The notes under the pieces were generated by a model. The model made no database searches. It saw nothing but the letters and a program-made list of their open reading frames with translations, and was not told the origin of the DNA. Positions 4,450 to 35,411 of a stretch of DNA of 64,000 bases are shown in pieces (position 1 is the stretch's first letter; each line of letters opens with the position of its first letter). The position numbers were made by a program, and so were the translations under genes. The stretch covers positions 5,360 to 69,359 of the forward strand of contig MU128932.1 of NCBI GenBank assembly GCA_014904985.1. The letters are read 5' to 3'. The DNA is from Hydnum rufescens UP504 (Eukaryota > Basidiomycota > Agaricomycetes > Cantharellales > Hydnaceae).

Positions 4450-4620
4450 AAGTTCACACATTTGGGCCCCATTGGTGCAGGCAGTTTGAATGTATCCACT
4501 TGGGTCCCATTTGGGCCCCACTTGGGCCCCACTTGGGCCCCACTTGGGCCCCATTTTGGGCCCCATTGCATTGATACTGCTCTTTAACTTTGTATTTGGG
4601 CCCTAGTGGGGCCCCAGTAT
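4450..4620. repeat. GGGCCC-rich mini-array
   Basis: Near 4505-4560 an 11-bp unit CCCACTTGGGC is repeated about four times without interruption, flanked by looser copies of TTTGGGCCCC from 4465 to 4615. Each unit holds the palindrome GGGCCC, so the block could fold or serve as a multi-copy protein site. It lies about 120 bp beyond the end of the transposase remnant and may be its subterminal repeat. A short open frame through it is just the repeat being translated. Confidence 0.7.
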
Positions 4621-4911
4621 TGTAGGACCTACTTAGGTACCAATTCATGGCACAGATTCGGTACCTAACATAGGTAGTCAATGTGGTTGACCAGCCTGTG
4701 CAACCACCCATTCCTATCCTGTCTCTATTGTTTCATTGAGCCTAGCTGCAGGCAGCCTTTGTTGTGCTCATTTACAGAAATAGTAGTATGAAACCCAGAC
4801 CTTTCTATGTAGAACTGTTCTGCTACCCTACCTAGCTGGATCTATGGTACACAATATGTTCATTCTTCCATAAATCCAGGGAACCCGGTCTTCATATACT
4901 AAAATAGGATA

Positions 4912-6034: not shown

Positions 6035-6389
6035 CCATACAGGTACAGCCATTCACATTCACAAGGCTTATGTATACCAGTAACCATATAGCTACAGAGC
6101 AACCTGTGCTGGTCCATTCCCCTTCAGGCCTGAGCCCATAGAGAGTGTAGACCACAGGGAAGCAGTAGTAGCTATGGGACCCAGACACAATCAAGTCCCT
6201 CATGTGACAGCTGACAGAAAGTGTTGGTGGAGGTGAATATTAGATATGTGGTCATCAGGAGAAGGCATGGCAGGTGATCCAGGGCAGATCATATAGATCA
6301 CAAGGGACTGTGATATAAAGTCTGTACCACTTTGTAGAAGGATAAAGTAAAAGAGAGGATCTGATTTACACATTTAGGGGTCTAGGAAA

Positions 6390-6870
6390 TGGGGCTGTGA
6401 AAAGGATCACATGATCAGAAAAGCGGAGAAAGTCCTAGAAAGAACAAGGGATGGAATATTAGATTGCGATAGAAACCTCTAGAATGGTAAGGAAGTTAGA
6501 TGGAGGGATGATAGAATATTCTAGAATGGGTCCTTAAAGGTATAAATATCCCTGTAATCTGGTGTGGTAGAACAACAAATCCAACACTAGGACTAGCTAG
6601 TAGAAGTTTGTCTCATAGATAGCTTCCTCTGAATCATAGTGATTGACTGTTCCCTGGTATCAAACCTTGTAAATTCACCTTGCCAGTACAATTAAGTACC
6701 TCTGGTGTGGTCCAGCTAGTGAACGGAACGTGTGTAATCCCACTAGTTGTAGAATAGCCCACTATAGTTAAGCTCACTTGTATCTGAATCTGAATCTAAA
6801 CCCAGGCATAGCAATCTGGTAAATACTGCATATCCAATACAGGCATAGCAACCTGATACAACCTCTCACC
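6390..6870. repeat. LTR-like stretch, possible solo LTR
   Basis: The stretch starts with TGTGAAAAGGATCACATGAT near 6396 and carries a TATA-like TATAAATA at about 6540. It has no coding potential and ends in CA-containing sequence near 6830-6860. This layout resembles a retrotransposon LTR with a promoter in the middle. No second copy in this window, primer-binding site or target duplication was found, so the call is weak. Confidence 0.25.
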
Positions 6871-7279
6871 CAGACTCCAAGTAGCCGGAACCTTTGATTA
6901 CATAATATGCAGATATTGACACAATTGATATAGCGCTACAGGCCATTACTCTCTTACAACACTAGATCACTACCTTTCCAGTTTGTCTCATCCTTCCTTG
7001 GCTTGACTCAGAGTCATACCACTTCTCCCTGAGGACCTCTATTGTGCCTTCTTGTCCAAGTCTGCAGCTTGCAAGTTGTAAGGTATTAATATTGTTCCAC
7101 CTCAGCAGTGTGCAGTTCCTGCATACCTCTCCCACCTTCTTATAGCTTCTAGCTACACCTTGTGTACTTAGAGTGTCCTGTGAAACCTTGCACCATTCTC
7201 ACTGACTAAGACTGAGGCTCGAGTTGGACAGCTTGCCCTCAGAGTTCTGTGGTCATACAACCTAGCCCATAAAACTCTT
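6871..7279. other. Unassigned spacer
   Basis: Low-complexity mixed sequence between the LTR-like stretch and the hairpin array. I see no open frame of interest, no RNA gene and no repeat. Confidence 0.4.
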
Positions 7280-7385
7280 CTACAGTGCACAGCCACTCAA
7301 GACACCAACAGTCAACCATCCGCAACATATGACGAATGAAACATGGTGCCACACACCCACTTCGGCGGGTGTGTGGCAATATTAG

Positions 7386-7492
7386 GTGAGTTTTTTCCTT
7401 ACAGAGTGTACCACAACACCAAAAGAGCAGCACCAGCTGCTCTTTTGGCATTGTCTTCGGTTTTTTTTCTTACTAACCTCTTGTTATTCTAG
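7386..7492 (+). other. Intron-like block 1 of the hairpin array
   Basis: GTGAGT at the start, hairpin B at 7419-7448 with 13-bp perfect arms, T-run, TACTAAC branch-like motif at 7471-7477, TTCTAG at the end. It is the clearest example of the six and is 107 nt long, longer than most introns in the host genes of this window (50-100 nt). Confidence 0.6.
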
Positions 7493-8683
7493 GTACCTCC
7501 ACCGGACAAAGTTTGAGATGAACATGCACAGCCACCCAATCCAAGAACCCAGTGCCCCAACACCTGCAATCTACATGACGACAGATGAAATATGGTACCA
7601 CACACCTGCTGTGGTGGGTGTGTGGTAATACTGGGTAAGTTCTCAATTATACAATGTACGACAGCGCCAAAAGAGCAGCAGAAGCTGCTCTTTTGGCACT
7701 GCTTGTGTTTTTTTCCTGTTACTAATGTGTTTGTTATTCTAGGTCCTTTCTCCCACTACAAAACCCCATCCAAAGCAAGCACAGATGAAGCCCAGGGTGA
7801 AAACCAAGCATGTGCAGCCACCCAAAGGCTCCGCCCCTGAGCACTTGTAACATACACAATGGCTTAAATATGGCACCACACCTGCTGCGGTGGGTGTAGT
7901 AAAATCCAGTGAGTGATATGTACAATGGCACCAAAAGAGTTGCAGCAGCAGCTCTTTTGGTGCCACCTGCATCTCTTTTTTTTTCTTTACTAATCTATTC
8001 ACTACCCTAGGTGCCTTTTCCCACTGCGAAACCCCACCCAAGGCAGCAGAGACGAAGGCCAGGGTGAAACATGGATGTATGCAGGCACCCGAAAGCCCAG
8101 CCCCTGAACACCCACAATGACCGCCATGATGAATTAAATATGATACCACACACCCACTGCAGCAGGTGTGTAGGTGAGTTTTCCATTACTACAACACCAA
8201 AAGAGCAGCACCAGCTGCTCTTGTGGCATTGTTTGGATTCTTTCTTTTTATTAACATGTTTATTATTCTAGGTTCTTTCTTCCATCACAAAACCCAACAA
8301 GGCCCAGAGCAAAATACAGGCACCCGCACAGCCACCCAAGACCCCGACCCTCAAGTATCCGCAGCTCACATGACAACCAATCGAATATGGTGCCACACAC
8401 CTGCTTTGGTGGGTGTGTGGTAGTATCAGGTACATCTAATCCCACTGGTGCCAAAAGAGCAGCAAAAGCTGCTCTTTTGGCACCCCTCTGTTTTCTTTTT
8501 TTTACTGATGTATTATTCTTTGTTATTCTAGGTGCCTTCCCTATGCAAAAACCTGCTCGATGAGGACATGGATGAGCCCCCAGCATGAAACCCAATGCAC
8601 AACTGCCCAAGCCCTGAGTACCCAGCCCCCAAACACAATGATCAACAAAATCTCATACCACACCTGCTGTGGTGGGTGACCTT

Positions 8684-8792
8684 GTAAGTTTCTCATTATA
8701 AGATGTGCAACCATGCCAGAAGAGCAGCAGTTGCTGCTCTTCTGGCACTGTTTCTGTTTTTTTATTCACTAACATATTATTGGTCATTGTAG
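8684..8792 (+). other. Intron-like block 6, hairpin with paired changes
   Basis: GTAAGT start, branch-like CACTAAC, TTGTAG end. Hairpin B at 8716-8745 reads CCAGAAGAGCAGC on the left and GCTGCTCTTCTGG on the right. Compared with the other copies an A-T pair has become a G-C pair on both arms, so pairing is kept. Confidence 0.6.
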
Positions 8793-8983
8793 ATCACCCC
8801 CATTATTCTAGACTGTCCCCACACAAAAACCCACCCAGCGAGAACACAAAGAGGCCCTCAAAAATACGAATGCACAGCCACTGAAGACACAGGCCAGGGC
8901 CACAAGAATGAAACCTGAAACCTGCATGAGCACAAAGACCTGTACAAGCCCGGGCTCATGGACTTGTATGAATACCCACCCAA

Positions 8984-9040
8984 GCCCCCCCCCCCCAGCC
9001 ATATGTAGTAGCAATAATAAATAATAATAATAATGAGGCC
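8984..9040. repeat. Poly-C run and TAA microsatellite
   Basis: A run of about a dozen C residues near 8985-8997 is followed by (TAA)n with interruptions at about 9010-9035. These are simple repeats with no evident function. Confidence 0.8.
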
Positions 9041-9309
9041 TCCATGTACATTAGTGATGAATAATAAAAGCTTGTGATTATCCCAATAAGCCAGTCCATA
9101 TAGCCCACTGACCCATTTAGGGACACGCTGGGATCTATCTCAATACCCCCATCCAAATATATCCATATGTGGATGCATTTGATCCCACATCAGTTGGTGA
9201 CTGATGCAGTAACCCCACATACTGGTATTACCGACAATATCTGCGGGGATATGGCCACCAATAGAAATCCTTCAAGTATATAGAGGAGTTCAAGACCTAA
9301 ATAGTGTAC

Positions 9310-9390
9310 AAGATGAGTTAACCTAGTTGGTTTGAGCACCTGGAGTTCCTCATATATTGGCACATTGTGGGTTCAAACCCTGTGAAGTGC
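9310..9390 (+). repeat. tRNA-like sequence, possible SINE head or tRNA relic
   Basis: CTAGTTGGTTTGAGCACCTG at 9323-9342 resembles a tRNA D-arm and internal promoter A box, and GGGTTCAAACCC at 9369-9380 matches a B box/T-arm. The spacing fits a tRNA, but the anticodon arm and acceptor stem are not recognisable, so it is not a working tRNA. A tRNA-derived SINE is the likeliest explanation. It lies about 180 bp from the left edge of the kinase array. Confidence 0.45.
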
Positions 9391-9427
9391 ATAATTATGG
9401 GTTTGATTTTTGAAACCTTGTGCATGG

Positions 9428-9565
9428 GCTCCTGATATATCAGCCATGGTACCATACCATGTTTGATATATCAGCACTACAGCTAGTGGTGGGTGGTATG
9501 AGACCACATTTATATATGACTTAAGTGTGGTATCATACCATCCTTGATATATGACCACTACAGCA
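9428..9565. repeat. Two diverged direct repeats at the array edge
   Basis: A ~55-bp segment containing ACCATACC, TTGATATAT and CACTACAGC appears twice, at about 9448-9500 and 9530-9565. The second copy ends exactly where similarity to the kinase unit begins. It may be part of the element that cut the first kinase copy. Confidence 0.45.
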
Positions 9566-11580
9566 TCTGGTGGTTGATCAACATGTTCAGCTGAGGATAT
9601 CAGTTGATCAGTAAGGCACCACCACTCAGGATATTCAAGCATACCCCTTTCAGATTGCCATGTATAATTGGAGGGTCATGTTCATGCAAGTATTGTAACC
9701 CCAGCACAACATCAGCACACTGTAAAGATCAAGCTCAGTGGGCGATGGATGCCATATTCAGGAGAAAGTATGTGGGTGTAAACACACAATAATCTCTTGA
9801 TTGACACTTGGATTCTGTGCTAGAAACCTGAAGACACAAAATTGAAACAAGGCCAGGCCCTTCTGGTTCTTCAGTATGACCTAACAATCACACCACATTC
9901 TCATGATGCAATTTGCACCCATATTCACATTTCCACATGCAGACACTATACATGTCATGAATGAAAGATTCATGGTGCAATTATTAGATGAAAGTCCATT
10001 CTGTTATAGATTACCTTGTGGAGTTTCCGTTTGAGTGTGTCCTTGTCCGTATATAAGGCACAAAGCACCTTGATAGCAACCTAGGACATCGGCTGTTAGC
10101 ACATACACCCTATGAGAGCTATGAATTGAGGACAATACCTGAAGAGCTTGATCAGGGCCGTCCTCAGAGGCAGAGAGCAAGCTGCCTCTCCAGACCGAGG
10201 AGTACTCACCTGTGGCCATGGGTGTTGAGCCTAAACAAACAATATGGCCAGTCAAGGTGGGAGTTTCAGGGGGACTGGGCTGGGGATTGGTAAATGGTGG
10301 GCTAGCTTGTGGGCCTTGTCCCGAGCTTCTGCAGAAGGAGCCGTGGTCACAGCACCTTGCAGAATGGACATGGCCTCGTCTATTCCGGTGGAAGCGTCTT
10401 TAGGAGACATCAGAGTGGAAGGAGTGGGAGTTGAAGATGGATTCGCGGATTGCACCGGTCGCCTCTCATCAGTTTGGCCAGATAAGGGCTTCCTGGTTTG
10501 GGATGTTGAAGGACGATGCAGATCGTGCAGTGTCGGGGATTCGGCGGGCTTTGAGGCGAGCATACTGGAGCGGGTAATTTCGCGACCTCGAGGCGGTCCA
10601 CCACCATTCTTCTCAGCGCCGGTCCCAGCAGCAGGTGCTGCACCATTTGCATTGGGCGACTGCATTGGGTGACATCGTGGGCGATGTTCCTCCCGTAAGG
10701 TTGGTGCTGAGCCAATATGTGCTATTTTCCGTTTCGTGCCTACTAGGGTTGAATCGGCTGTTTGAAATAGAGGAACGGGCAGGTTTTTCCATCTCTCCGG
10801 GTCCGTGAGTGAGATCTTTTTCGCGCTAGGGTACTGGATAGCAAATTGGCACTGCACGGATTCTATATGGGCCGCGTGGGGCGCGAAAGAAAGGAGGGCG
10901 CTCTCGAGCCAGCCTGGTAAGGGTGGTTTGACGCAAGATCCCCCAAAGCCTTGATGAAGTATTCCGAAGTTGAGGCAAGTCCACCACCAAGAGTAGAAAA
11001 AGGCAACCGCGTAGGGTGCCCTAATATTAATATTTCCGAGAAGGTCTATGACGTGACGGAAATTCAGGGTAGCAAAAGTGGTGGCCATGGTGTAATCCTG
11101 GCGTAGTGTCCCGAGCTTAGAGCGGTCAGCGGAGAATTGGACTATAGCCGTGCTGCTATAGGCCGCGTCTGCGCCCGCAACCAGACAATTGGCACCCTCT
11201 GGGTCTGGATGTGAACACCCATGAGCAAATAGCTGTACTGGAAGTTCATTCAGCCGCCTGGAATACAAGGACACGGTCAACTACGCCAACCATTACGCCC
11301 AGGTGACACACGACGTCTTGGACACCCCCTGACATAAATGTATGCAGCCTACCAAAAGTCTCCGTTATTATGCCGTCGCACGTATTCAACGGGATGGCTT
11401 ACGCAGAATCAGGAGAGGTAACCTCCCTATAGAAGTCAGGAAGCTCCCAGACGACTGGAGGGACCGTTTCAGCGATAGCAGCAAAAGAGTCAGGGCATCA
11501 GCGCCGGATTCAGCGAGAGACAAGTCCATAGTCCTTGGAGATATGAGAACGAGTAACCTCGCTCTGTCTCCGTTTGCCAT
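9566..11580 (-). pseudogene. U1: kinase copy lacking the C-lobe
   Basis: Leftmost copy of the kinase family. From the right, an ATG at 11580 opens the N-terminal exon (MANGDRAR), then a 342-codon open frame (11280-10252) covers the N-terminal domain with its W-W-W-T-C-L-N-F-G motif and the Ser/Pro-rich linker. The glycine loop follows as ATGEYSSVWRG (Gly to Glu against the other copies), then the HGDLK catalytic-loop region near 9660. Similarity stops near 9566, just at the start of the exon that encodes the DFG segment, so DFG, APE and the rest of the C-lobe are gone. The N-terminal exon also shows a frame change against U2. No active kinase can be made from this copy. Confidence 0.8.
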
Positions 11581-14167: not shown

Positions 14168-17095
14168 TTACGAAGATGCTTTGTCGTAGCACTCGTAGGA
14201 CACCATCAACGAGTAGGGGAGGCGGAATTTTACAGAATAGTTCGTCCATTGTGAAACGTAGGGAGGGCTCTCCGATGATGGTGCATCGTTTCCCGAGAGA
14301 GAGGACGCATCAGAGCCATCATCCGAGTCTACTAATACCTTATCAGCTTTTACTTCCGTTAGAGAGTAAGGCGCAACGCACCCTTGAGGTTCTGACTGTC
14401 CACCAATTCCCAGCGATAGCGCTGATAAATCGGGACTCGGTGGAGTGAGGTAGAAGATTCCACCAGAATGCGCAGTCCATCATCATCCACCCATATAAGC
14501 CTTGCTTGTTCAACGCCAGGAAGGGACATAAGTCGAACACGCCTCCCCTGTTAACGAATAATTTGGGTGCATAATCCAGTAGAGTACTATCCAGAGAGAG
14601 CACGTACAATTCCTTTCCGGATGCCCAAGTTTGTTCGAGAGGTATGGTACAAGCAGCGCTTTATAGTGTCGATGATCAAGTTCAATGGTGGCCGACTCGA
14701 TCGGTCGTGATCCCAGCAGCGCTTCAAGATTCGCAAAACTGAAGGGAAAGTGACTTCCTCATTCGATGGTTCGAAGGGAGGCTCATGATTCGATATAGCA
14801 CGTATAAGGGGTGCCTCTTTGGACAGCTGGTGGAAGGGCTCCTGGTCAAACAAGATCTATGGGGAACAGAGGACCACAAGCTAGATACAAAGCATGCCGC
14901 CCGGCAAGAATGGATCGCACCTCAATACAAGCACATGCATAAGCATATATGTCTGTCTCCACAGTTCTGGTGCTTTCTTCCAGAAGTTCGGGAGCTAGAA
15001 ATCGCAGTGTGCCGCCAAAGTTTGAAGATGTATGGCCAGTAGGTTCTCCATCAAGAATTACAGACAGTCCAAAATCACAAATACTCCCTCTTCCTTCTCC
15101 ATTGATCAGCACATTCCGCTGAGCATGTAAATTCATCAGCAATGCACCACCACTCTGTAAATTCAGCCATACCCCTTTAAGATCCCCATGGATAATTTGA
15201 GGCTTGTGTTCATGCAAGTACTGTAATCCCAATGCAACATCGGCACACTGTGAAGATCAAGCTCAATTGGGGAGGGTCCCTTATTTGAGTGAAAGTATAC
15301 CCATGTGAACATACAATAACCTCTCGATTGACACTTGGATTCTTCACTAGAAAGCTCAGGACATCACCATGAACATATGAGATTGAAACAAGACCAGGCC
15401 CTTCGCGTTCTTCAGTATAACCTAACAACCTCACCACATTCTCGTGATGCAATCGGGCCCATATTCGGAGTTCTACATGCAGATGCTACACCTATCATGA
15501 ACAGAAGATCTATTATGCAACTATCAGATAAAATTACCTTGTGGAGTTTCCGTTTGACTGTGGACTCATTTGTATATGGGACATGAAGCACCTTGAGAGC
15601 AACCTATGGAATTGGCTGTTAGCAGATGCACCCTCTGGGAGTTATGAATTGAAAAGAGCACCTGAAGAGTTTGGTGAGAGTCATTGGAGGTGGTAGAGAT
15701 CAAGCTGCCTCTCCAGACTGAGGAGTACCCTCCTCTGGCCATGGGTGTTGAGCCTAAACGAACAATGCGGCCAGTCAAGTTGGGGGTTTCGAAGGGACTG
15801 ACTTGGGGATTGGGAAATGGTGGGCTGGCATGTGGGCCTGCTCCCAAAGCTTCTGCAGGAGCTGTAATCATAACACCTTGCAGAATGGGCATGGCTACAT
15901 CTATTCCGGTGGAAGCCTCTTTAAGAGACATCAGAGTTGGAGGAGTGGGAGTTGAGGATGGATTCGCAGGTTGTACTGGTCGCCTTTCATCGGTTTGGCC
16001 AGATAAGGCATTCCTGGTTCGGGTTATTGACCGACGATGCAGATTGTGTGGTGTCGTGGATTCAACCGGCTTTGAGGCGAGTACATTGGAGTGGTTGATT
16101 TCACGTCCTTGAGGCAGTTCACCACCATTCTTCCCAGTGTCGGCAGCAGCAGTAGGTACAGCACCATTCACATTGGGCGACTGCATTGGGCGAGGTTGTC
16201 GGAGATGTTCCTCTGGTAAGGTCAGTGCTGAGCCAATACGTGTTATTTTCCCTTTTGTGCCTGCTAGGGTTAAATCGGTTGGTTGAGATAGAGGAGTGGG
16301 CTCGTTTTTCCATCTCTCCAGGTCCATGAGTGAGATCTTTTTCGCGTTAGGGAACTGGATAGCAAATTCCTGCTGCAGGAATTCTACACGGGTTGCATGG
16401 TGTGCGAAAGAACTGAGGGTGCTCTCAAGCGAGTGTGGTGAGGGCGGTTTGACCCAAGATCCCCGAAGCCTTGATGAAGCATTCCAAAGTTGAGCCAACT
16501 CCACCACCAAGAGTTCGATGCAGTCGTGGGGGCACTAGATTAATATTATTGAGAAGGTCTATGACGTCACGGAAATTCAGGGTAGCAAATGTGGTGACCA
16601 TGGGGTAACCAAGGAATGGTTCCCGAAGCTCAGAGCGGTCAGCGGAGTATTGTATTGTATCCGGGCTGCTATAGGACCGCCTCTGCGCCCGCAACCAGAC
16701 AATTGGCACCCTCTGGTTCTGGATGTGGACACTCATGAGCAGACAGGTGCCCTGGAAATTCATTCAGCTGCCTGGAATGCAAGGAGATGATAATAAACTA
16801 TGCCAACTGTGCCCAGGTAACACAGGATGTCTCGGACATCCCCTGATATAAATGCATGCAGCCTACCAAAAGTCTCGGTTATTATGTAGCGGTATGTATT
16901 CAACAAGATGACATACTCAGAGCTAGGAGAGGTGACCTTCTTATAGAAGTCAGGAAGCTCCCAGACGACTGGAGAGACCCTTTCAGCGATGGCGGCAAAA
17001 GAGTCAGTGGCATTAACACGGGATTTGGCGCGAGACAAGACCACTGTTATTGGAGGTATGGGGGAGGGCGATCTTGCTCTGTCTCTGTTTGCCAT
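14168..17095 (-). pseudogene. U2: kinase gene with one frameshift
   Basis: Second copy. An ATG at 17095 starts MANRDRAR and an open frame through VVWELPDFYKKV and ETFGRLHAF; this exon is best preserved here. The next exon encodes VPIVWLRAQRR, followed by the N-terminal domain. A run of four Cs at 16461-16464 (five in U1, U4 and U6) removes one base and shifts the frame inside that domain. Downstream the kinase looks sound: GGYSSVWRG glycine loop, a VALK-type lysine exon, HHENVVRLLG, YLHEH, HGDLKG, CDFGLS, APELL and CW-x-H-D-R-S-S-R-P. The C-terminal extension ends at a TAA at 14168-14170. If the single-base difference were a sequencing error this would be a second intact gene. Confidence 0.75.
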
Positions 17096-19899: not shown

Positions 19900-22816
19900 T
19901 TACGAAGAAGCTTTGTGGTAGGCTTCGTAGGACACCATCGACGAGTAGGGGAGGCGAAATTTCACGCAGTAATCCGTCCATTTTGAGACGCGGGGAGGGC
20001 TCTCCGATGATGATGCGTCCTTCCCCGAGAGAGAGGAAGCATCAGAGCCATCCTCCGAGTCTACCAATACCCAATGGGCTTTTACTTCTGTCAAAGAAGA
20101 CGCAACGCACCCTCTGGGTTCTGCCTATCCATCAATTCCCACCGATAACGCTGATAGATCGGGACTCGGTGGAGGGAGATCCCGCAATCCACAATGATGC
20201 TCAGTCCACCATCGTTGACCGAGATCAGCGCTCCTTGTTCAATGCCAGGAAGGCAAATAAATCAAACAGTCCTGCCCTGTAAACCGACAATATAGGCGCA
20301 TAAACCAGTGGAACCCTATCCAGAAAGAGCACGTACGACTCCTCGGTGGACCCCCGAGTTTGTTCGATAGGAATGGTACAAGCAGCGCCGTGAAGTGTCG
20401 ACGATTAGGCCCAATGATGGCCGACTCGATCGGTTGTGATCCCAGCAACGCCTCAAGATTAGCCAAAAGAAAGGAAAGTGACTTCCTCGTTCGATGATTC
20501 AAAGGGAGGCTCATGATTCGATATGGCACGTATCAGGGGCGCCTCTTTGGAGAGTTGATGGTAGGGCTCCCGGTCAAACAAGATCTATCGGGAATAGAGG
20601 ATTACATGCTAGATACACGGCAGGAGCGAATCGCACCTCAATACAAGTGCATGCATAAGCATATATGTCCGTCTCCACAGTTCCAGTGTCCCCATCAAGA
20701 AGTTCGGGAGCCAGAAATCGCAGTGACCCGCCGAAGTTTGAGGAGGTATGGCCGGTAGGCCCCCCATCAAGAATTATGGATAGTCCAAAATCACAAATAC
20801 TCGCTCTTCCTTCCGCGTCGATCAACACGTTCGGCTGAACATATCAATTCATCAGCAAGGCACCACCACTCGGGGTGTTCGGGCATACCCCCTTCAGATC
20901 GCCATGTATAATTGGAGGCACGTGTTCATGCAAGTATTGTAATCCCAGCGCGACATCGGCGCACTGTAAAGATCCAGCTCAGTGGGCGATGGATCCCATA
21001 TTCGAGACGATGCATATCGATGTAAACGCACGATAATCTCTCGATTGACGCTTGGATTCTTCGCTAGAAAGCTCAACACATTACCATGAGGGTACAACGT
21101 TGAAACGAGACCAGGCCCTTCTGGTTCCTCGGTATGACCTAGCAATCCCACCACGTTCTCGTGACGTAATTGAGCCCATATCCGCATTTCTACATGCAGA
21201 CGCTACATCTATCATGAACAAAATATCCATGGTGTAACGGTCAGATACAATTACCTTGTGGAGCTTCCGTTTGACCGTGTACTCATCCGTATACGAAGCA
21301 CGAAGCACCTTGATAGCGACCTAGGGCATCGACTATTAGTACTTGTGTCCTGCGGAGCTATTAATTGAGAAGAGCACCTGAAGAGATCGATCAGGGTGAT
21401 CGAAGGGACCAGAGAGCAAGGTGCCTCTCCAGACTGAGGAATACCCGCCAGTGGCGAGGGTGTTGAGCCCAAACGAACAATGTGCCCCGTCAAGTTCGGA
21501 ATTTCGGGAAGCCTGGATTGGGGATTAGGAAATGATAAACTAGCTTGTGGACCGTGCCCGAAAGCTGGTGTGGAAGGAGCCGTAATCACAACACCTTGCA
21601 GAATGGACGTGGCTTCGTCTATTCCGGTGGAACCCTCTTTAGGAGACAACAGAGTCGGAGGAACGGGAGTTGAAGATGGATTCGCGGGTTGCACCGGCCG
21701 CTTCTCATCGGTTTGGCCAGACAAGGGTTCCTAGTTCGGGATATTGAAGGACGATGCGGATCGTGTGTCCGGAAGTTAACAGGCTTTGAGGCAAGCACAT
21801 TGGAGTGGTTGATTTCGCCACGTCGAGGCGGTTCACCACTGTTCTTCTCAGCGTCAGTCGCAGCAGCAGGTACTGCACCATTCGCACTGGGCGACTGTAT
21901 TGGGTGACGTCGTTGGAGATGTTCCTCCGGTGGGGTTGGTGCTGAGCCAATATGTGCTATTTCCCGTTTCGTGCCTACTAGGGTTGAATCGGCTGGTTGG
22001 GACAGAGAAGCGGACTCGTTTTTCCATTTCTTGGGGTCCCTGAGTGAGATCTTTTCGCGTTAGGGAACTGGATAGCAAATTGGCGCTGCACGGATTCTAC
22101 ACGGGCCGGGAGGCGTGCGAAAGAACCGAGGGCGCTCTCGAGCCACTGTAGTGAGGGTGGTTTGATCCAAGATCCCCGAAGCCTTGGTGAAGCATTCCGA
22201 AGTTGAGCGAAGGCCACCACCAAGAGTAGGACAAAGGCATGCGGTCTACTACATTAATATTATCATTAATATTATTGAGAAGGTCTAGGACGTGACGGAA
22301 ATTCAGGGTAGCAAATGTGGTGGCGATAGTGTAATTGGGGCGTGCGTCCCGGAGCTTAGAACGGTCGGCGGAGAATTTGATTGTACCCGGTTCATCGATC
22401 CCCCTCTCCGCCCGCAACCAGACAATTGGAACCCTCTGGTTCTGGATGTGGACACTCATGAGCAGATGCCGCTTGCCCTGGAAGTTCATTCAGCCCGCCT
22501 AGAAAATGCAAGGGCATGATAAACTATGCCAACCGGGTCATCGCAGCACCACGATAGTCTCGGATATCCCCTAATATAAATGCATGCAGCCTACCAAAAG
22601 TCTCCGTTATTATGTTGCTGCATGTATTCGACAGGATGGCTTACGCAGAATCAGGACACGTAACCTCCCTATAGAAGTCAGGAAACTGTCCAGACGATTG
22701 GAGGGACCAATTTCAGCAATAGCAGCAAAAGATTCAAGGGCATCAGCGTCGGATTCAGCGGGAAATAAGACCGGAGGCATGAGAATGGGCAACCTCGCTC
22801 TCTCTCCCTTTGCCAT
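19900..22816 (-). pseudogene. U3: kinase pseudogene, several frameshifts
   Basis: Third copy. An ATG at 22816 starts MAKGERAR but the frame soon differs from U2. The N-terminal domain (MSVHIQNQRVPIVWLRAER, NFRHVLDLLNNI) runs to the same four-C run seen in U2 (22174-22177), which shifts the frame. A second shift follows near 22055, inside the NAKKIS-type segment. The glycine-loop exon has a one-base loss at about 21457-21460. HGDLKG and CDFGLSIILDGG remain, but the C-lobe exon is shifted near 20465, losing the R-C-W motif. The C-terminal extension (VSKWTDYCVKFRLPYSSM) ends with a stop at 19900. Clearly inactive. Confidence 0.8.
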
Positions 22817-27197: not shown

Positions 27198-29775
27198 TTA
27201 TACCGTTTCGGAAGTCGATTCGTTGTAGGGCTCATAGGACACCATCAACGAGTAGAGGAGGCGGAATTTCGCAGAATAGTCCTTCCATTTTGAGACGTAG
27301 GCGGGGATCTGCGATGATGATGCAAACTTCCCCGTCAAGGAGGTGAAAGCAGTGAAAGGCGAATACCGATGATTTGCTTTATGGTGCCGAGATACATCCA
27401 AGTCATCCTCGGAATCTACCAATACCCTATCAGGCTTGACTTCTGTTAGAAAATAAGGCCCAGCGCACCCTTGCGGTTCCGCCCATCCATCAATTCCCAT
27501 CGATAACGCTGATAGATCGGGACTCGGTGCAATGAGCTTGAAGACTTCACCACGATGCTCAGCCCACCGTCCGTGACCGAGATCAACCTTGCTTCTTCAA
27601 TCCCAGGAACACACATAAACCGAACACGCCTGCCCTGTAAACCAATGACCTAGATTCATAATCCAGTGGAGTACTATCCAGGAAGAGCACGTACGATTCC
27701 TTGATGGACGCCCAAGTTTGTCTGATAGGTACGGTACAGGCACCGCTGCAGAGTGTCAATGATTAAGCTCACTGATGGCCGACTTAATCGGTCGTGAGAC
27801 CAGCAGCGTTCTAAGACTTGCAAAACTGAACGAAACGTGCCCTCCTCGTTTTCCGGTTTAAAAGGAGGCTGATGACTCCATATAGCACTCAAGATGTGTG
27901 CCTCTCTGGAGAGTTCGTGATAAGGCTCCTGGTCAAACAAGATCTGCAGTGGATGGAGGATTACAACTTAGACACGAAGCACAGTGTGCGAGAAGAATCG
28001 ATCCCACCCCAATACAAGTGCATGCGTAAGCATATATGTCTGTCGCCACAGTTCTAGTGCTTTCTTCCAGAAGCTCAGGGGCCAGAAATCGCAGTGACCC
28101 ACCGAAGTTTGATGATGTATAGCCAGTAGGGTGCCCATCAAGAATAATAGACAGTCCGAAATCACAAATACTCCCCCTTCCTTCCGCGTCGATCAACACG
28201 TTCGGCTGGGGATATCAGTTGATCAGTAAGGCAACACCACTCGGGATATTCGAGCATACCCCTTTCAGATCGCCATGTATAATTGGAGGGACGTGTTCAT
28301 GCAGGTATTGTAACCCCAGCGCGACATCGGCACACTGTAAAGATCCACCTCAGTGGGTGATGGATGCCGTATGCGAGTGAAAGTATATGGATGTAAACGC
28401 ACAATAATCTCTCGATTGACACTTGGATTCTTTGCTAGAAACCCTGAGACATTACTGTGAGGGTACAAAAATGAAACGAGGCCAGGCCCTTCGGGTTCGT
28501 CAGTATGACCTAACAATCGCACCACGTTCTCGTGATGCAATTGCGCCCATATTCGCATTTCCATGTGAAGACGCTATGCATGTCGTGAATGAATGATTCA
28601 TGGTGCAATTATTAGATGAAATTACCTTGTGAAGTTTCCGTTTGAGCGTGTCCTCATCCGTGTATGAACCACGAAGGACCTTAATAGCGACCTAGGACAT
28701 TGGCTGTTAGCACATGCACCGTGTGGGAGCTATGAATTGAGAACAATACTTGACGAGCTTCATCAGGGGAGGAGGCAGGGAGTAAGCTGCCTCTCCAAAC
28801 TGAGGAGTACCCGCCTGTGGCCATGGGTGTTGGGCCTAAGCGGACAATACGGCCAGTCAAGTTGGGAGTTTCTGGGGGACTGGTGGAAAATGGTGAGGTA
28901 GCTTGTCCCGAAGCATCTGCGGAAGGAGGCGTAATCATAACACCTCGCAGAGTGGACGTGGCTTGGTCTATTCCGGTGGAAGCCTCTTTCGGAGACATCA
29001 GAGTGGGAGGAGTGGGTGTTGATAATGGATTCTCGAGTTGCACCGGTCGCCTTTCATTAGTTTGGCCAGAGAACTTGAAGAGCTTCCTGATTTGGGGTAT
29101 TACAAGACGACGCGGACTGTTTGATGTCGGTGATTTGATGGGCTTTGCATTGGAGGGGTTAATTTCGCGACCTCGAGGCGGTTCACCATCATTCTTCTCA
29201 GCGCCGGTCGCAGGAGCAGGTACAGCACCATTTGCATTGGGCAACTGCACTGGTCGAGGTCGTTGGGGATGTTCCTCCTGTAAGACTGGTCCTGAGCTAA
29301 TATCCGCTATTTTCCCCTTTGTGGTTAAATCGGCCTCGTTTGTCCATCTTTCCGGGTCCCTGAGTGAGATCTTTTTTGCGTTAGGGTACTGGATAGCAAA
29401 TTGGCGCTGCAAGGATTCTATATGGGCCGCGTGGGGCGCGAAAGAAACGAGGGCGTTCTCAAGCCAACCTGGTGATGGCGGTTTGACCCAAGATCCCCCG
29501 AAGCCTTGATGAAGCATTCCGAAGTTGAGGCAAGTCCACCACCAAGAGTAGGTCGAAGGCGTGGGGTGTACTACCTCAATATTATTGTTGAGAAGGTCTA
29601 TGACGTGACGGAAATTCAGGGTAGCAAATGTAGTGGCTATGATTTCATTGTGGTGTGGTTCCCAGAGCTTGGAGCGGTCGGCGGAGAATCGGATGATACC
29701 TGCGTCCCCATAGAACCGCCTCTCCGCCCGCAACCAGATAATTGGCACCCTCTGGTCCTGGGTGTGGACCTTCAT
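27198..29775 (-). CDS. U4: intact TKL-like protein kinase, 8 exons
   Basis: The only copy with a full frame. Exons (minus strand): 29775-28750, 28691-28626, 28573-28403, 28334-28260, 28205-28008, 27943-27695, 27634-27469 and 27415-27198; they sum to 2169 nt, 722 codons plus stop, and every intron is GT-AG of 52-68 nt. Residues 1-150 form an unrecognised family domain (VPIIWLRAERR, NFRHVIDLLN, YSWWWTCLNFGMLHQGFGG). Residues 150-300 are a Ser/Pro/Thr-rich linker. The kinase starts near 310: glycine loop GGYSSVWRG, VAIK lysine, EMRIWAQLHHENVVRLLG, HGDLKG catalytic loop (HGD instead of HRD, common in fungal TKL-like kinases), CDFGLS, APELL and R-C-W-S-H-D-R-L-S-R-P. A ~125-residue C-terminal extension (GRRVRFMCVPGIEE onward) follows. 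Likely a soluble Ser/Thr kinase; substrate unknown. An exon upstream equivalent to U2's first one (near 30119) is broken by stops. Confidence 0.75.
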
Positions 29776-32695
29776 GAGCAGATTATCGAACTAAAGGTTC
29801 ATTCAGCCGCCTGGAATGTAAAGACATGATAAACTATGCCAACCCAGCCCAGGTAACACGCGATCTCTCGGACATCCCCTGATATAAGTGCACGCAGTCT
29901 ACAAAAGTCTCCGTTATTATGCCGTTGCTCGTATTCAACAAGATGACTCACTCAGAGTCAGGAGAAGTAACCTCCCTATAGAAGCCAGAAATAGTCCGGG
30001 AGACTGGAACTCTCACTTCTGCTGCAGCAAAAGAGTCAGGGGCATCAGGAGCGGGAGACAAGACCGTTTGTCCTTGGAGGTACGGGAACGGGCGACCTCG
30101 CTCTGTCTCCGTTCGCCATCAAGGATCAGAAGCGCGGGGAATTCAACACCGCCACGTGTCCAGATCGGACGATCATCAATTCAGTCCCCATCTTGTCTGT
30201 CAGCGCTTGCAGAACATGGCTGGTCAACTCAAACCTCCCCTCCTCCTCAATGAAAACTTTCAGCAGACTCATAAGCCTACACCCTTACGATTTTTTCGTC
30301 CCCGTCACGGTGAACGGCTCCCAGAATCTAAGCTAAGTACATCTACCCGGGCTGATCCTAAACATGATATCGCTGCAAGTCTGGACACATCTTCATGCCC
30401 TGGGCGTTGAGGTGGTCTCACAGCCATCACCTCAAAGTCTTCCGATACCATTCTCACCAAGCACAACGGCGGTGAATACATTTGCTTTTTTCACTCTCCC
30501 TCGAGTAAGGAGGCGGATCATCCGTCCACTTAGCAGGCGACCAAGGAAAGGACGAGTTACACAGCCCCCGTGCTGGTCCGAGTCCTGATGATGGCCGCAG
30601 GCGTCTTCGCCACCTATTTACCTATGAGTAAATGAAGGGAGAGTGGATGCAAAAAATGCAGTGTGAGATCCGAAAGTCCAAACGACGCCCCTGCAGGCTG
30701 AATGATAGTGGATCACGGGAGGGAGCTAAGGCGCGTGGAATGGGACGTGCGTGCGTCCTACAGTTTCCTCCCCCAGGGACGAGGTGAATCTGGAGTATGG
30801 AAGTGACCCAACGGCCAAAAACACGCATATATCACGTACGTTTACCTAGATTTACTCCATCGACAGAGTAAATGAAAGCCTCACTGGGCGGACACTAAGC
30901 CTCGGCCCGCTCACCTGGTAAATTTATTTCACCGTGTTCAGACGATCCACACGACCTGTATTAAGAAAAGTAATGGCCTACCGGGACGCGAGGGGGCTTG
31001 GCTTGGAAGACGTATTTCCGGTTTAAGAACGGCATTATACTGGTGCTAAAGGACTATCTGAGGAGGCCATAAAGTAAGAGCCAAGGATGAGAAGCATTTC
31101 TCCATACATCCACATATACCGTACCTGTACGATTTGCCCCGGGGGGGTTTTCATCCTCCACCGCGCGCGTTCATTGGACACCACGTCGTCTTTGGGCCCA
31201 TCACTGGAGAATAGGATGGCTATGCCGCGATTGAAGGAGTCCGTAAGACCACTAGAGAAGCGCGACGAACGAAAGGGATCGCAGATGAAGGTGATAAGCA
31301 TGGCGGTGGTCTCCCACGAGGTGCGGCGCGACGCTGTCAAGTCGCCTCGAGGCAAAATCAATTCTTTGTGGATATGTACGATGCCAGGCCCCGCTTTTGA
31401 GTTGTTTGGGGGTTGCGCTAGCGTTCTACATAGATCGTAGGTTCGGTCACAGTTCACAAAGGATTCCATGTCGCTGTCACGCATCACAGGTCACGGAGAA
31501 CTCGAAAAGTGCCCTCCAGAATCAGATGAGATCGGAGGTCCGTTCCAACTTCCCGTTGGCATGAACTGATCTTTGCCTTAGTCGGAGCTCATTGAGGCCT
31601 GGTGAAATGGTGGGCTACCCATTTTGAGCTGTCACAAGAATTTCGTGCGAACTTGCCGTCGAAGGAGGAAAGAAATCCGCACGTCAGGAGCTAGATTCTT
31701 CCCAGGTGTCCGCAACCGGGTGAGGTAATGCAACGCAATGACGTTCTTTCCTCCGCGAAGCCCAGGAGCTACATCTTTTAGATGAACCATGCACTTTCAG
31801 TTGGCATCTGGATGACGCGACCTCCGGGGACTCCTTTTTTCTCTCTTCTTTTCTTTTTTTCTCCCAATTCAGGATGAGCCGGTATCGAGGGTACCCGATA
31901 TTATCTGGACTTCACTGCGTCCACCTGTGTTTATTTCTCTGCACCCGGTCTTGGATAATTACTGACAACATATTGTATGCGGGCACTGGTACACTAACCG
32001 TTGCAGCATCGAGTGGGCCGATTCAGACTCTGATGTCGAGAATCACAACAAACAACTCGGCGATTCGCCTCTGTGGAATAGGGAATAGTCCCGTAGGGTT
32101 TTTCGGCGTATCTGGGCTGTCGGGAGGCGTTTTTTGTGAGTGTTCTGCTCTTGGGTACCAGATTGACAGAGTGGGGAATAGATTAGGGGGAAATGATCGT
32201 CAGGAATGATCGGGTGCAAACCAATCATGGATGAATCCTACACCCCAGGGGGGAGAACAGCTGGTCGCGTCCCGCTCACGTTCCGTTTAATGCCTTTTAC
32301 GTGTTTTCTATATCCTCGGGGGCCTAAGGGTTCCATTCCACGGACAGCACATAAATTAATTCTGCGCGAAGAGTACGGTAGTTGAATAAAGAATTTGTCC
32401 AAAAAGGTCTACTTTGTGCGGCTGATTTTTTCGCTCCCCTCCTCGAGATTCTTGTTTCGCTCAACGTTCCGAGATTTTCGATTGCGCGTTGTTGATTTCT
32501 TCGCATCAATCCCCACCCTCCCCAGGGATGTAAATTATCCAAGTATCATGTCCATCTGATATCCTTTCTTCAAGTCTGAATCACACACATATGTGTCCGA
32601 AATCGATATCTACAATCATACCCCCATACATAGATACATCACATACTGCACAACATGACTCCCCATGAATAAGCCAGAAGATGACAGCCCGTTGC
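29776..32695 (-). other. U4 leader, short type
   Basis: Upstream region of the intact copy, similar to the U1 and U2 leaders. The segment equivalent to the MANRDRAR exon of U2 (ATG at 30119) has in-frame stops here. A plus-strand frame at 31874-32209 and a minus-strand frame at 31487-31035 are open, but their equivalents in other units are broken. The promoter of the intact kinase should lie in the first few hundred bases, but I see no clear TATA element. Confidence 0.45.
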
Positions 32696-32829: not shown

Positions 32830-34775
32830 TTTGTCATATGGACTCGTAGGACTACCATCGACGAGTAGGGGAGGCGAAATTTCACAGAGTAATCCCTCCA
32901 TTCTGAGACGTAGGGAGGCCTCTCCGATGATAATGCGTCCTTCCCCGAGAGAGAGGAAGCATCGGAATCACCCTCCGAGTCTACCAATACTCGATCAGCT
33001 TTTACTTCTGTCAGAGAAGAACACGCAACGCCCCCTCCAGGTTCTTACTATCTATCAATTCCCAGCGATAACGCTGATAAGTCGGGACTCGGTGGAGGGA
33101 GATCCCGGAATCCACAATGATGCTCAGTCCATCGTCGTCGGCCGAGATCAGCGTTCCTTGTTCAATGCCAGGAAGGCAAAAAAATCGAACACTCCTCCCC
33201 TGTAAACCGATAATCTAGGCACATGAACCAGTGGAACCCTACCCAGAAAGAGCACGTACGAGTCCTTGGTGGACGCCCAAGTTTGTTTGATAGGAATGGT
33301 ACAAGCAGCGCTGTGCAGTGTCGATGATTAAGTCCACTGATGGCCGACTCGATCGGTCGTGAGACCAGCAGCGTTCTAAGACTTGCAAAACTGAAGGAAA
33401 CGTGCCGTCCTCGTTTTCTGGTTTAAAAGGAGGCTGACGACTCCATATAGCACTCATGATGTGTGCCTCTTTGGAGAGTTTGTGATAGGGCTCCTGATCA
33501 AACAAGATCTGCAGTGAATGGAGGATTACAAGTTAGACACAAAGCACAGTATACGAGAAGAGTGGATCCCACCGCAATACAAGTGCATGCATAAGCATAT
33601 ATATCTGTCTCCACAGTTCTGGTGCTTTCCTCCAGAAGTTCGGGAGCTAGAAATCGCAGTGTGCCGCCAAAGTTTGAAGAGGTATGGCCAGTAGGCGCCC
33701 CGTCAAGAATTATAGACAGTCCAAAATCACAAATACTCGCTCTTCCTTCCGCGTCGATCAACACGTTCGGCTGAACATATCAATTCATCAGCAAGGCACC
33801 ACCACTCGGGATGTTCGGCCATACCCCCTTCAGATCGCCATGTATAATTGGAGGCACGTGTTCATGCAAGTATTGTAATCCCAGCGCGACATCGGCGCAC
33901 TGTAAAGATCCAGCTCAGTGGGCGATGGATTCATATTCGAGACGATGCATATCGATGTAAACGCACGATAATCTCTCGATTGACGCTTGGATTCTTCGCT
34001 AGAAAGCTCAACACATTACCGTGAGGGTACAACGTTGAAACAAGACCAGGCCCTTCTGGTTCCTCGATATGACCTAGCAATCTCACCACGTTCTCGTGAC
34101 GCAATTGAGCCCATATTCGCATTTCCACATGCAGACGCTATGCATGTCGTGAATAAAAGATTCATGGTGCAATTATTGAGATAAAATTACCTTATGGAGT
34201 TTCCGTTTGAGCGTGTACTCATCCGTATACGAAGCACGAAGTATCTTGATAGCGACCTAGAGCATCGACTATTAGCACTTGTGCCCCGGCGGAGCTATGA
34301 ATTGAGAGAACACCTGAAGAGATCGTCAGGGTGATCGGAGGGACCAGAGAGCAAGGTGCCTCTCCAGACTGAGGAATATCCCGCCAGTGGCGAGGGGTGT
34401 TGAGCCCAAACGAACAATGCGCCCAGTCAAATTAGGAGTTTCGGGGCGCCTGGATTGAAAGGATGAACTAGCTTGTGGACCGTGCCCGAAAGCTTGTGTG
34501 AAAGGAGTCGTACTCCCAACACCTTGTAGAATGGGGGCGGCGTCATCTATTCCGGTGGAAGCTTCTTTAGGAGACATTAGAGTTGGAGTGGGAGTTGAGG
34601 ATAGAATGGCGGGTTGCACCCGTCGCCTCCCATCGGTTTGGCCAGATAAGGGGTTCCTGGTTCGGGGTATTGAACGGCGGTACAGGTCGTGTAGTGTCGG
34701 GGATTTGGCAAGCTTCGAGGCAAGCACACCGGGGCGGTTGATTTCGCGACGTCGAGGCGGTTCACCACCGTGCAA
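32830..34775 (-). pseudogene. U5: kinase half left of the inversion
   Basis: Kinase-side half of the fifth copy. It keeps HVEMRIWAQLRHENVVRLLG, HGDLKG, CDFGLSIILDG, APELLEES and the RCWSHDRSSRP element, with splice sites as in U4. The glycine loop exon carries one extra base near 34378, turning GGYSSVW into a shifted frame. One extra base near 32853 shifts the C-terminal extension. Upstream the gene stops abruptly at about 34775 in the linker (GGEPPRRREINR): the next base belongs to an inverted piece of the same gene. Cannot produce a normal protein. Confidence 0.8.
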
Positions 34776-35411
34776 GGCCATAATAACGGAGACTTTTGGT
34801 AGGCTGCATGCATTTATATCAGGGGATGTCCGAGACATCGAGTGTTACTGGGCTGGGTTAGGCATAGTTTACCATGTCCTTGCATTCCAGGCGGCTGAAT
34901 GAACTTCCAGGACAACTGTCTGTTTATGGGTGTCACACATCCAGAACCAGAGGGTACCAACTGTCTGGTTGCGGGCGGAGAGGTGGTCCTATGGCAGCCC
35001 GGGTACAATCCAATTCTCCGCCGACCGCTCCAAGCTCTGGGAACCCACACCCACGATGAAGTCATAGCCACCACGATTTGCTACACTGAATTTCTGTTGC
35101 GTTCATAACGACCTTCTTCAACATAATATTGAGGTAGTACACCCCACGCTTCGACCAACTCTTGGTGGTGGACTTGCCTCCAACTTCGGAATGGCTTCAT
35201 CAAGGGCTTCGGGGGATCTTGGGTCCAAACCGGCCACCCAAGCGTGGCTCGACATCACCCTCGTTCTTTCAGCGCCGCGGCCGTATAGAACTCTGTGGCA
35301 GGCGCGCAAATTTGCTATCCCAGGTTCCCTAAATGCGAAAAAGATTTCACTCTAGCGGACCCAGAGAGATGGAAAAACGAGCCCCGCTCTCTAATCTCAA
35401 CCAGCCGACCC

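Follow-up and report, generated by a model that had tools for sequence, protein, structure and literature searches.

The locus considered here raises the question of why an apparent exon, followed each time by an apparent hairpin-bearing intron, should be repeated six times in tandem in Hydnum rufescens UP504 when the exon blocks do not keep a reading frame. The first-pass annotation offered two answers as alternatives, an RNA-level role or a transposon relic, and the evidence backs both together, since arrays of this kind are dispersed with defined ends and target duplications and also carry constrained, covarying splice signals and hairpins. On the explanation that fits best, and that we consider probable, the array represents a truncated right arm, belonging to a cut-and-paste transposon of KDZ type (Kyakuja-like) that is non-autonomous and carries two divergent spliced non-coding units.

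In the window (the whole 64,000-nucleotide stretch of DNA analysed), the array consists of six exon-plus-intron units at 7284-8792 with a spacing of 248-266 bp, and all six predicted introns run from GT to AG over 98-109 nt, so that the six-copy array of the earlier annotation is real. The extent given there (7280..8930) starts a few bases early and ends inside the last exon or 3' region. The parts of the copy, together with the repeat that borders it, are as follows.

6333..7283, forward strand: LTR-like repeat, outside the element, with TGTAGAAG...CTTCTACA ends; abuts and truncates the array
7284..7385, forward strand: exon-like block of unit 1, 5'-truncated at the LTR junction; hairpin A at ~7347-7378
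7386..7492, forward strand: predicted intron 1, GTGAGT...ACTAAC...CTAG; hairpin B at ~7419-7448
7493..7634, forward strand: exon of unit 2; hairpin A at ~7596-7627
7635..7742, forward strand: predicted intron 2, GTAAGT...ACTAAT...CTAG; hairpin B present
7743..7908, forward strand: exon of unit 3; hairpin A eroded (z -0.8)
7909..8010, forward strand: predicted intron 3, GTGAGT...ACTAAT...CTAG; hairpin B at 7926-7965
8011..8173, forward strand: exon of unit 4; hairpin A eroded (z -0.6)
8174..8271, forward strand: predicted intron 4, GTGAGT...ATTAAC...CTAG; hairpin B present
8272..8429, forward strand: exon of unit 5; hairpin A at ~8391-8422
8430..8531, forward strand: predicted intron 5, with weak donor GTACAT, then ACTGAT and CTAG; hairpin B present
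8532..8683, forward strand: exon of unit 6; hairpin A eroded (z -0.4)
8684..8792, forward strand: predicted intron 6, GTAAGT...ACTAAC...GTAG; hairpin B present
8793..9572, forward strand: 3' part of the element, including the last exon-like block, AATAAA motifs and the right terminus

The 80-nt pieces matched among the window units are 61-79% alike to the reference copy, and the five complete exons measure 142, 166, 163, 158 and 152 nt, lengths with which the frame is lost. Hairpin B, which lies mid-intron, is clear in all six introns: folding z ranges from -3.4 to -7.6, and no more than 1 in 200 shuffled sequences folds equally well. Hairpin A, which closes the exon, is clear in units 1, 2 and 5, where z is -3.4 to -5.2, whereas units 3, 4 and 6 have an eroded form of it (z -0.4 to -0.8); the two well-kept hairpins per unit described earlier therefore hold for hairpin B, but in this copy for only half of the hairpin As. 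In the 3' part, AATAAA motifs can be read off the sequence at 9016 and 9063, and the right terminus falls at 9491 (...CTAGTGGTG) or 9572 (...CATCTGGTG). Tandem Repeats Finder at its usual settings does not report the array, Rfam gives no match in the window at gathering scores, and a tRNA scan of the window returns nothing.

The array belongs to a large family. In the 63.2-Mb genome (539 contigs) it has at least 350 matches (the best 40 of 1,184 candidates having been scored), the longest of which runs for ~1.5 kb in register. A strict pattern that combines the hairpin B core with ACTAAY occurs at 2,061 + 2,104 = 4,165 genome sites, and its reversed control at 0 + 0. This pattern recovers 133 of the 251 known units that span its site, and the genome may hold ~8,000 units in total, a rough figure in that the loci used for calibration were picked by likeness to the window. 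These are 20 loci fetched for study, and in them and the window a unit profile detects 277 units, of which five are solo (no same-strand neighbour within 400 nt). The earlier annotation had held that many dispersed solo copies, along with an absence of transcription and splicing, would mark a simple satellite or MITE cluster; copies are indeed dispersed, but they are rarely solo.

In 18 of the 20 fetched loci (hand count), arrays are paired outward from a centre, mostly of 0.26-0.73 kb; L023 and L020 lack such a pair, the array of L020 lying next to the start of its contig, and in L009 one side of the outward pair consists of fragments only. The palindrome at the centre of L030 is near-perfect, and the centre of L028 comes close to this. 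A TATA motif (TTTATATRAGCCTTGTA, at most one mismatch) occurs at 46 sites (control 0), among which 14 outward pairs 85-96 bp apart were counted by hand. Each arm typically has 3-9 modules with introns of ~108 nt, and in the copies read AATAAA-rich sequence precedes the terminus. The six units that had been taken as a natural set thus cover a portion of one of the element's two arms. Position by position, the seven elements closest to the window match it at 84-93%, compared with 61-79% for the window's own units against the reference copy, which indicates that arrays spread as wholes, at least among close relatives; more distant elements match at ~67-73%. Satellite-like homogenisation of units within an array is not seen in the seven closest elements. 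L024 has 31 units in 9.9 kb, belonging to several elements that are packed together or nested; an older module type with a different spacing is among them. Nested insertions appear to account for the 3 kb of extra sequence in L011 and for the interruption of a unit in L010.

Exact 7-bp target duplications flank five elements, four of group B, to which the window copy belongs (L015, L016, L027 and L029), and one of group A (L021). The duplications of L015, L016 and L027 (TCACAGT, GTATAAT and GACTTGT) were read from a listing of 8-mers with one mismatch, and those of L029 and L021 are CAGTTGG and GTTCACG, respectively. For the shared left end, a duplication is present at three of nine ends tested. 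A candidate duplication at L030 is left uncounted, about 0.4 such matches being expected by chance on our own estimate. Group B elements start with CAGCCCTAGCTGTAGTATAGATATATCAAA and end with ..TTTGATATATCAGCACTACAGCTAGTGGTG or close to it, and the four with duplications have a CAGCCC start and a ..TG end. Their ends form imperfect inverted repeats of ~25-30 bp, and the group B end core is found at 56 genome sites with at most two mismatches (control 0). The group A element L021 starts with CACCTTGG / CACCTTGGACAGCC and its end reads ..CTG or ..CTGG according to the point at which the duplication is cut. A second terminal sequence, CAGGCTGTAGTGTTGATATATCA, appears 13 times among the matches listed (e.g. 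at C26:398127 and C1:80835) and may mark another such family.

Target duplications of 7 bp and CA..TG ends are also features of Kyakuja elements: in the parts of Kojima 2025 (PMC12730594) that deal with them, two Laccaria families have both, and have no terminal inverted repeats. The H. rufescens genome contains at least 154 matches to pieces of KDZ transposase. Two KDZ copies, L031 and L032, are 99.8% alike over 4.5 kb and both start with CAGGCTGGTCAGCC; their other end and target duplication were looked for and not found, and no 7-bp duplication is confirmed for KDZ elements here. A KDZ terminal motif, CASNCTGGTCAGCC, occurs at 502 genome sites (control 0), and a hand comparison with the motif sites listed places an exact copy, pointing outward, within ~3 kb downstream of 9 of the 26 KDZ matches on contigs C1-C31.

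The 40 terminal bases of array elements were compared with the KDZ end in L033, against which 500 gapped shuffles reach maxima of 26-29. L037 matches at 38/40, L036 at 36/40, and L034 and L035 at 31/40 each; in these four elements a second end and a target duplication were looked for and not found. The right ends of group A match at 31 (L021) and 32 (L022) of 40 with gaps (23 and 24 ungapped), and the group A left end, at 23/40, is not above the shuffles. The ends of group B, the window's subfamily, match at 20-22/40 gapped, within the range of the shuffles. The terminal bases thus suggest a good link to KDZ for some array elements (L034-L037 and the group A right ends), and for the window's subfamily an indirect one, which would run through CA..TG ends, 7-bp duplications and homologous arrays. 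In a tblastn search with one 184-aa KDZ fragment, matches are found in L018, L020, L031, L032 and L033 but in none of the five two-ended array elements (L015, L016, L021, L027 and L029), and these are accordingly regarded as non-autonomous. Array elements therefore resemble Kyakuja in their duplications and CA..TG ends, and some carry the terminal bases of the resident KDZ elements, but they differ in that the interior is made up of two divergent exon-intron arrays and that no transposase is present in the two-ended elements. The Kyakuja families that Kojima describes (PMC12730594) have no inverted ends; the window's subfamily has them, although imperfect, and it is therefore called KDZ-type here and is not assigned to a Kyakuja family.

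The copy in the window retains its right end. Its left end was looked for and not found, and the promoter arm is missing. The array starts abruptly at 7284 because the LTR-like repeat ends there. This repeat (6333-7283) has 43 genome matches including itself, many of which start at 6332/6333, and when the query is extended into the array, 31 of the 39 other matches stop at 7284-7294, none of them continuing through the array; the remainder comprise seven that end earlier and a copy of the array. Genome-wide, the repeat is present in about 40 copies or pieces, 83-99% alike, and no short matching duplication is visible by eye at its edges. Since the repeat removes the promoter side, the window copy could presumably be transcribed only from outside, e.g. 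from that LTR. Further upstream lies a decayed KDZ transposase (2201-2971; Pfam PF18758, E 3.8e-49), whose element probably ends at 4698 (CAGGCTGGTCAACC), separate from the array; an 11-bp tandem repeat, CCACTTGGGCC (4496-4565, 6.3 copies), sits ~130 bp inside this KDZ-like terminus. The KDZ gene was considered as part of the array element and dropped, as the terminus at 4698 and the LTR-like repeat intervene. Downstream, minus-strand open frames at 10252-11280, 15566-16534, 21251-22059, 28681-29790 and 34326-34844 look by eye like one repeated gene family, among which lies a protein-kinase piece (14846-15256); a search with one member returns seven relatives, five on JGI contigs and two in H. 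rufescens.

The case for an RNA-level function rests on which positions of the module are kept. The consensus exons are CpG-rich and the copies have decayed at CpG, which could mimic selective conservation elsewhere. The comparison is therefore limited to non-CpG columns, and conservation is expressed as the average frequency of each column's commonest base among 46 full, non-redundant units. The stems reach 0.97 and 0.98 (hairpin A) and 0.97 and 0.96 (hairpin B), the branch site 0.965, the donor 0.88 and the acceptor 0.97, the last value being biased upward by the requirement that units align to the last column. By comparison, the exon body has a value of 0.73 and the exon end 0.71, other intron sequence 0.68, the two loops 0.79 and 0.63, the T tract 0.73 and the stretch from branch site to acceptor 0.76. 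CpG columns score lower, at 0.66 for the pair located in the hairpin A stem and 0.62 for those of the exon body. Across the larger set, AG is present at the aligned acceptor in 215 of the 251 units that reach the branch site, GT at the donor in 225 of 253 (eight are unaligned there and 20 have another sequence), and ACTAAY at the branch site in 171 of 228. At the sequence level, a GT, a branch site and an AG held at constant spacing and conserved above background characterise these predicted introns as spliceosomal.

The stems are also kept as pairs. In 64 non-redundant modules, 94.0% of cells pair, and two-sided changes occur in 21 of 30 pairs, amounting to 132 cells as against 54.8 in shuffles, with the proviso that units share ancestry and such counts are not independent events. 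None of 500 shuffles reaches any of five covariation measures, and structures slid along the alignment give 9-33 cells. Among single-sided stem changes outside CpG, there are 36 transitions that leave a G-U pair on the predicted strand and 19 that abolish pairing, besides 26 non-pairing transversions (57, 48 and five, respectively, at CpG pairs). Relative to background rates, the bias toward keeping G-U has P values of 0.056 (C>T/G>A) and 0.0006 (A>G/T>C), which are optimistic given that the units are related. Splice signals and stems are constrained, and the stems covary.

Dyads kept in this manner could instead be DNA-level subterminal repeats, comparable to those of CACTA elements, with hairpins A and B serving as dyad-symmetric sites for the transposase or a helper and the splice-like motifs being incidental. 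The symmetrical arrangement of the arms is as expected for such sites, and the near-invariance of non-CpG stem positions on both sides is what sequence-specific DNA binding would give; however, GTRAGT, ACTAAY and YAG are also strongly conserved, at intron spacing, and both the compensatory stem changes and the preference of single transitions for G-U on the predicted RNA strand point to RNA, so that we regard this alternative as unlikely. The hairpins, chiefly the intronic hairpin B, might also be small-RNA precursors (mirtron-like or siRNA), which would be compatible with the transposon reading and is suggested by the strong hairpin in each of the six window introns and by the covariation of the stems. 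Such a role has a slight chance of being correct, given that the stems are ~16-18 bp, which is short for a Dicer substrate, that hairpin B does not span the intron ends, and that Rfam has no match in the window. That the locus is a simple satellite or MITE cluster with an exon-intron look acquired by chance is hardly credible: it would agree with the high copy number and with the in-register identity of distant elements, which is no higher than that between units, but the units are not homogenised (as seen in the identities of the window units and the seven closest elements), nearly all have neighbours, and conservation sits on splice signals and stems.

The public annotation treats the arms as protein-coding repeat genes with one repeat per exon, in which case most would now be pseudogenes. 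Nine public 'hypothetical proteins' match the array translation, all matches being to H. rufescens UP504, and one of them, P0004, is identical at 228 of 228 residues, exon by exon, to five exons in contig C195, with all four acceptors being the predicted ones. The right arm of L030 is open for 162 codons after in-silico splicing, and in 2 of 12 arms, both of L030, the longest frame exceeds 95% of shuffles in a scan that missed introns (a 265-codon frame in L030 is discounted, as it runs through intron sequence). Exons also have fewer indels per substitution than introns (0.054 versus 0.252, the introns holding T tracts), and they contain sense TAA and TAG less often than shuffles do. TGA, however, is not depleted; the units being related by descent, and antisense stops being reduced in total as well, this stop depletion is not used as coding evidence. 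Against coding, most exons have a length that is not divisible by 3, and close copies differ in exon length by 1-3 nt. Indels between close copies are multiples of 3 in 39 of 238 cases in exons (16%) and in 1,349 of 5,947 in introns (23%), and open-frame exons make up 39% versus 37% in shuffles. Of the four donors of P0004, two are the conserved ones and two lie, by our own reading, inside hairpin A, the kind of site that a gene finder searching for an open frame would pick. Despite the contrary hints, the exons do not protect a reading frame, as the first-pass annotation had held for the blocks in the window, and a coding origin of the arms appears quite improbable. We read the nine protein models as over-annotation. 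Two neighbouring public models on one contig, BS47DRAFT_1367198 and 1367199, of which 1367199 was compared with the DNA, may be the two arms of one element.

Under the preferred reading, that of a KDZ-type transposon with two divergent non-coding units, KDZ transposase from other copies would move the element in trans, and Pol II would transcribe both arms from the outward TATA motifs of the central region. Each module would comprise a non-coding exon ending in hairpin A, followed by a spliceosomal intron with hairpin B, and removal of the hairpin-bearing introns by the spliceosome would yield a spliced non-coding RNA with serial hairpin As, along with many small hairpin introns. As to why such modules would be selected, our preferred guess is that splicing makes the element RNA resemble host mRNA, which would keep the locus expressed, open and unsilenced. 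A transposon class with splicing as its cargo, whose arms selection has maintained through many transposition cycles because the spliced state or the hairpin RNAs protect from silencing or recruit host machinery, is a tentative proposal, which we hold to be possible and somewhat less than an even prospect.

Several known systems share part of this arrangement. The subterminal repeats of CACTA/En-Spm elements are short transposase-binding motifs on both arms in inverted orientation, and are similar in that inverted repeats occupy both arms, but the array consists of ~265-bp modules with full splice signals. In Cryptococcus, a stalled-spliceosome route leads from intron-rich transposon transcripts to siRNA, which likewise links introns in transposon RNA to silencing; those introns lie in coding or centromeric transposon RNAs, whereas the array is a hairpin-bearing non-coding intron array. 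Introner-like elements were reportedly described by van der Burgt et al. in 2012. Introners, as presented in the relevant parts of Gozashti et al. 2022 (PMC9860276), are repeated, similar spliceosomal introns tied to DNA transposons and inserted one by one into host genes. The array resembles them in its repeated, sequence-similar spliceosomal introns linked to a DNA transposon, but on that description each introner copy is an intron in a host gene, whereas here tandem introns lie inside a transposon with its own non-coding exons, and single copies as expected of introners are scarce in the fetched loci and the window (the 5 of 277 noted above). Among the papers listed by a full-text literature search, none describes a counterpart of such an element, judged by title and the beginning of the abstract.

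The mobile frame of these elements is known, and the exon-intron cargo is, as far as this search goes, a variant not described before. Non-autonomous DNA transposons are usually thought to need their ends only, while here the interior is a conserved exon-intron array, from which it follows that selection appears to act on the splicing and RNA structure of a non-coding transposon. The findings also suggest that arms of this kind have been read as genes, giving some of the 'hypothetical proteins' catalogued for this fungus. The elements allow a direct test of whether splicing lets a transposon escape silencing, and they bear on the origin of mobile introns. If the reading of splicing as cargo is true, a single genome would contain several thousand introns outside any protein gene.
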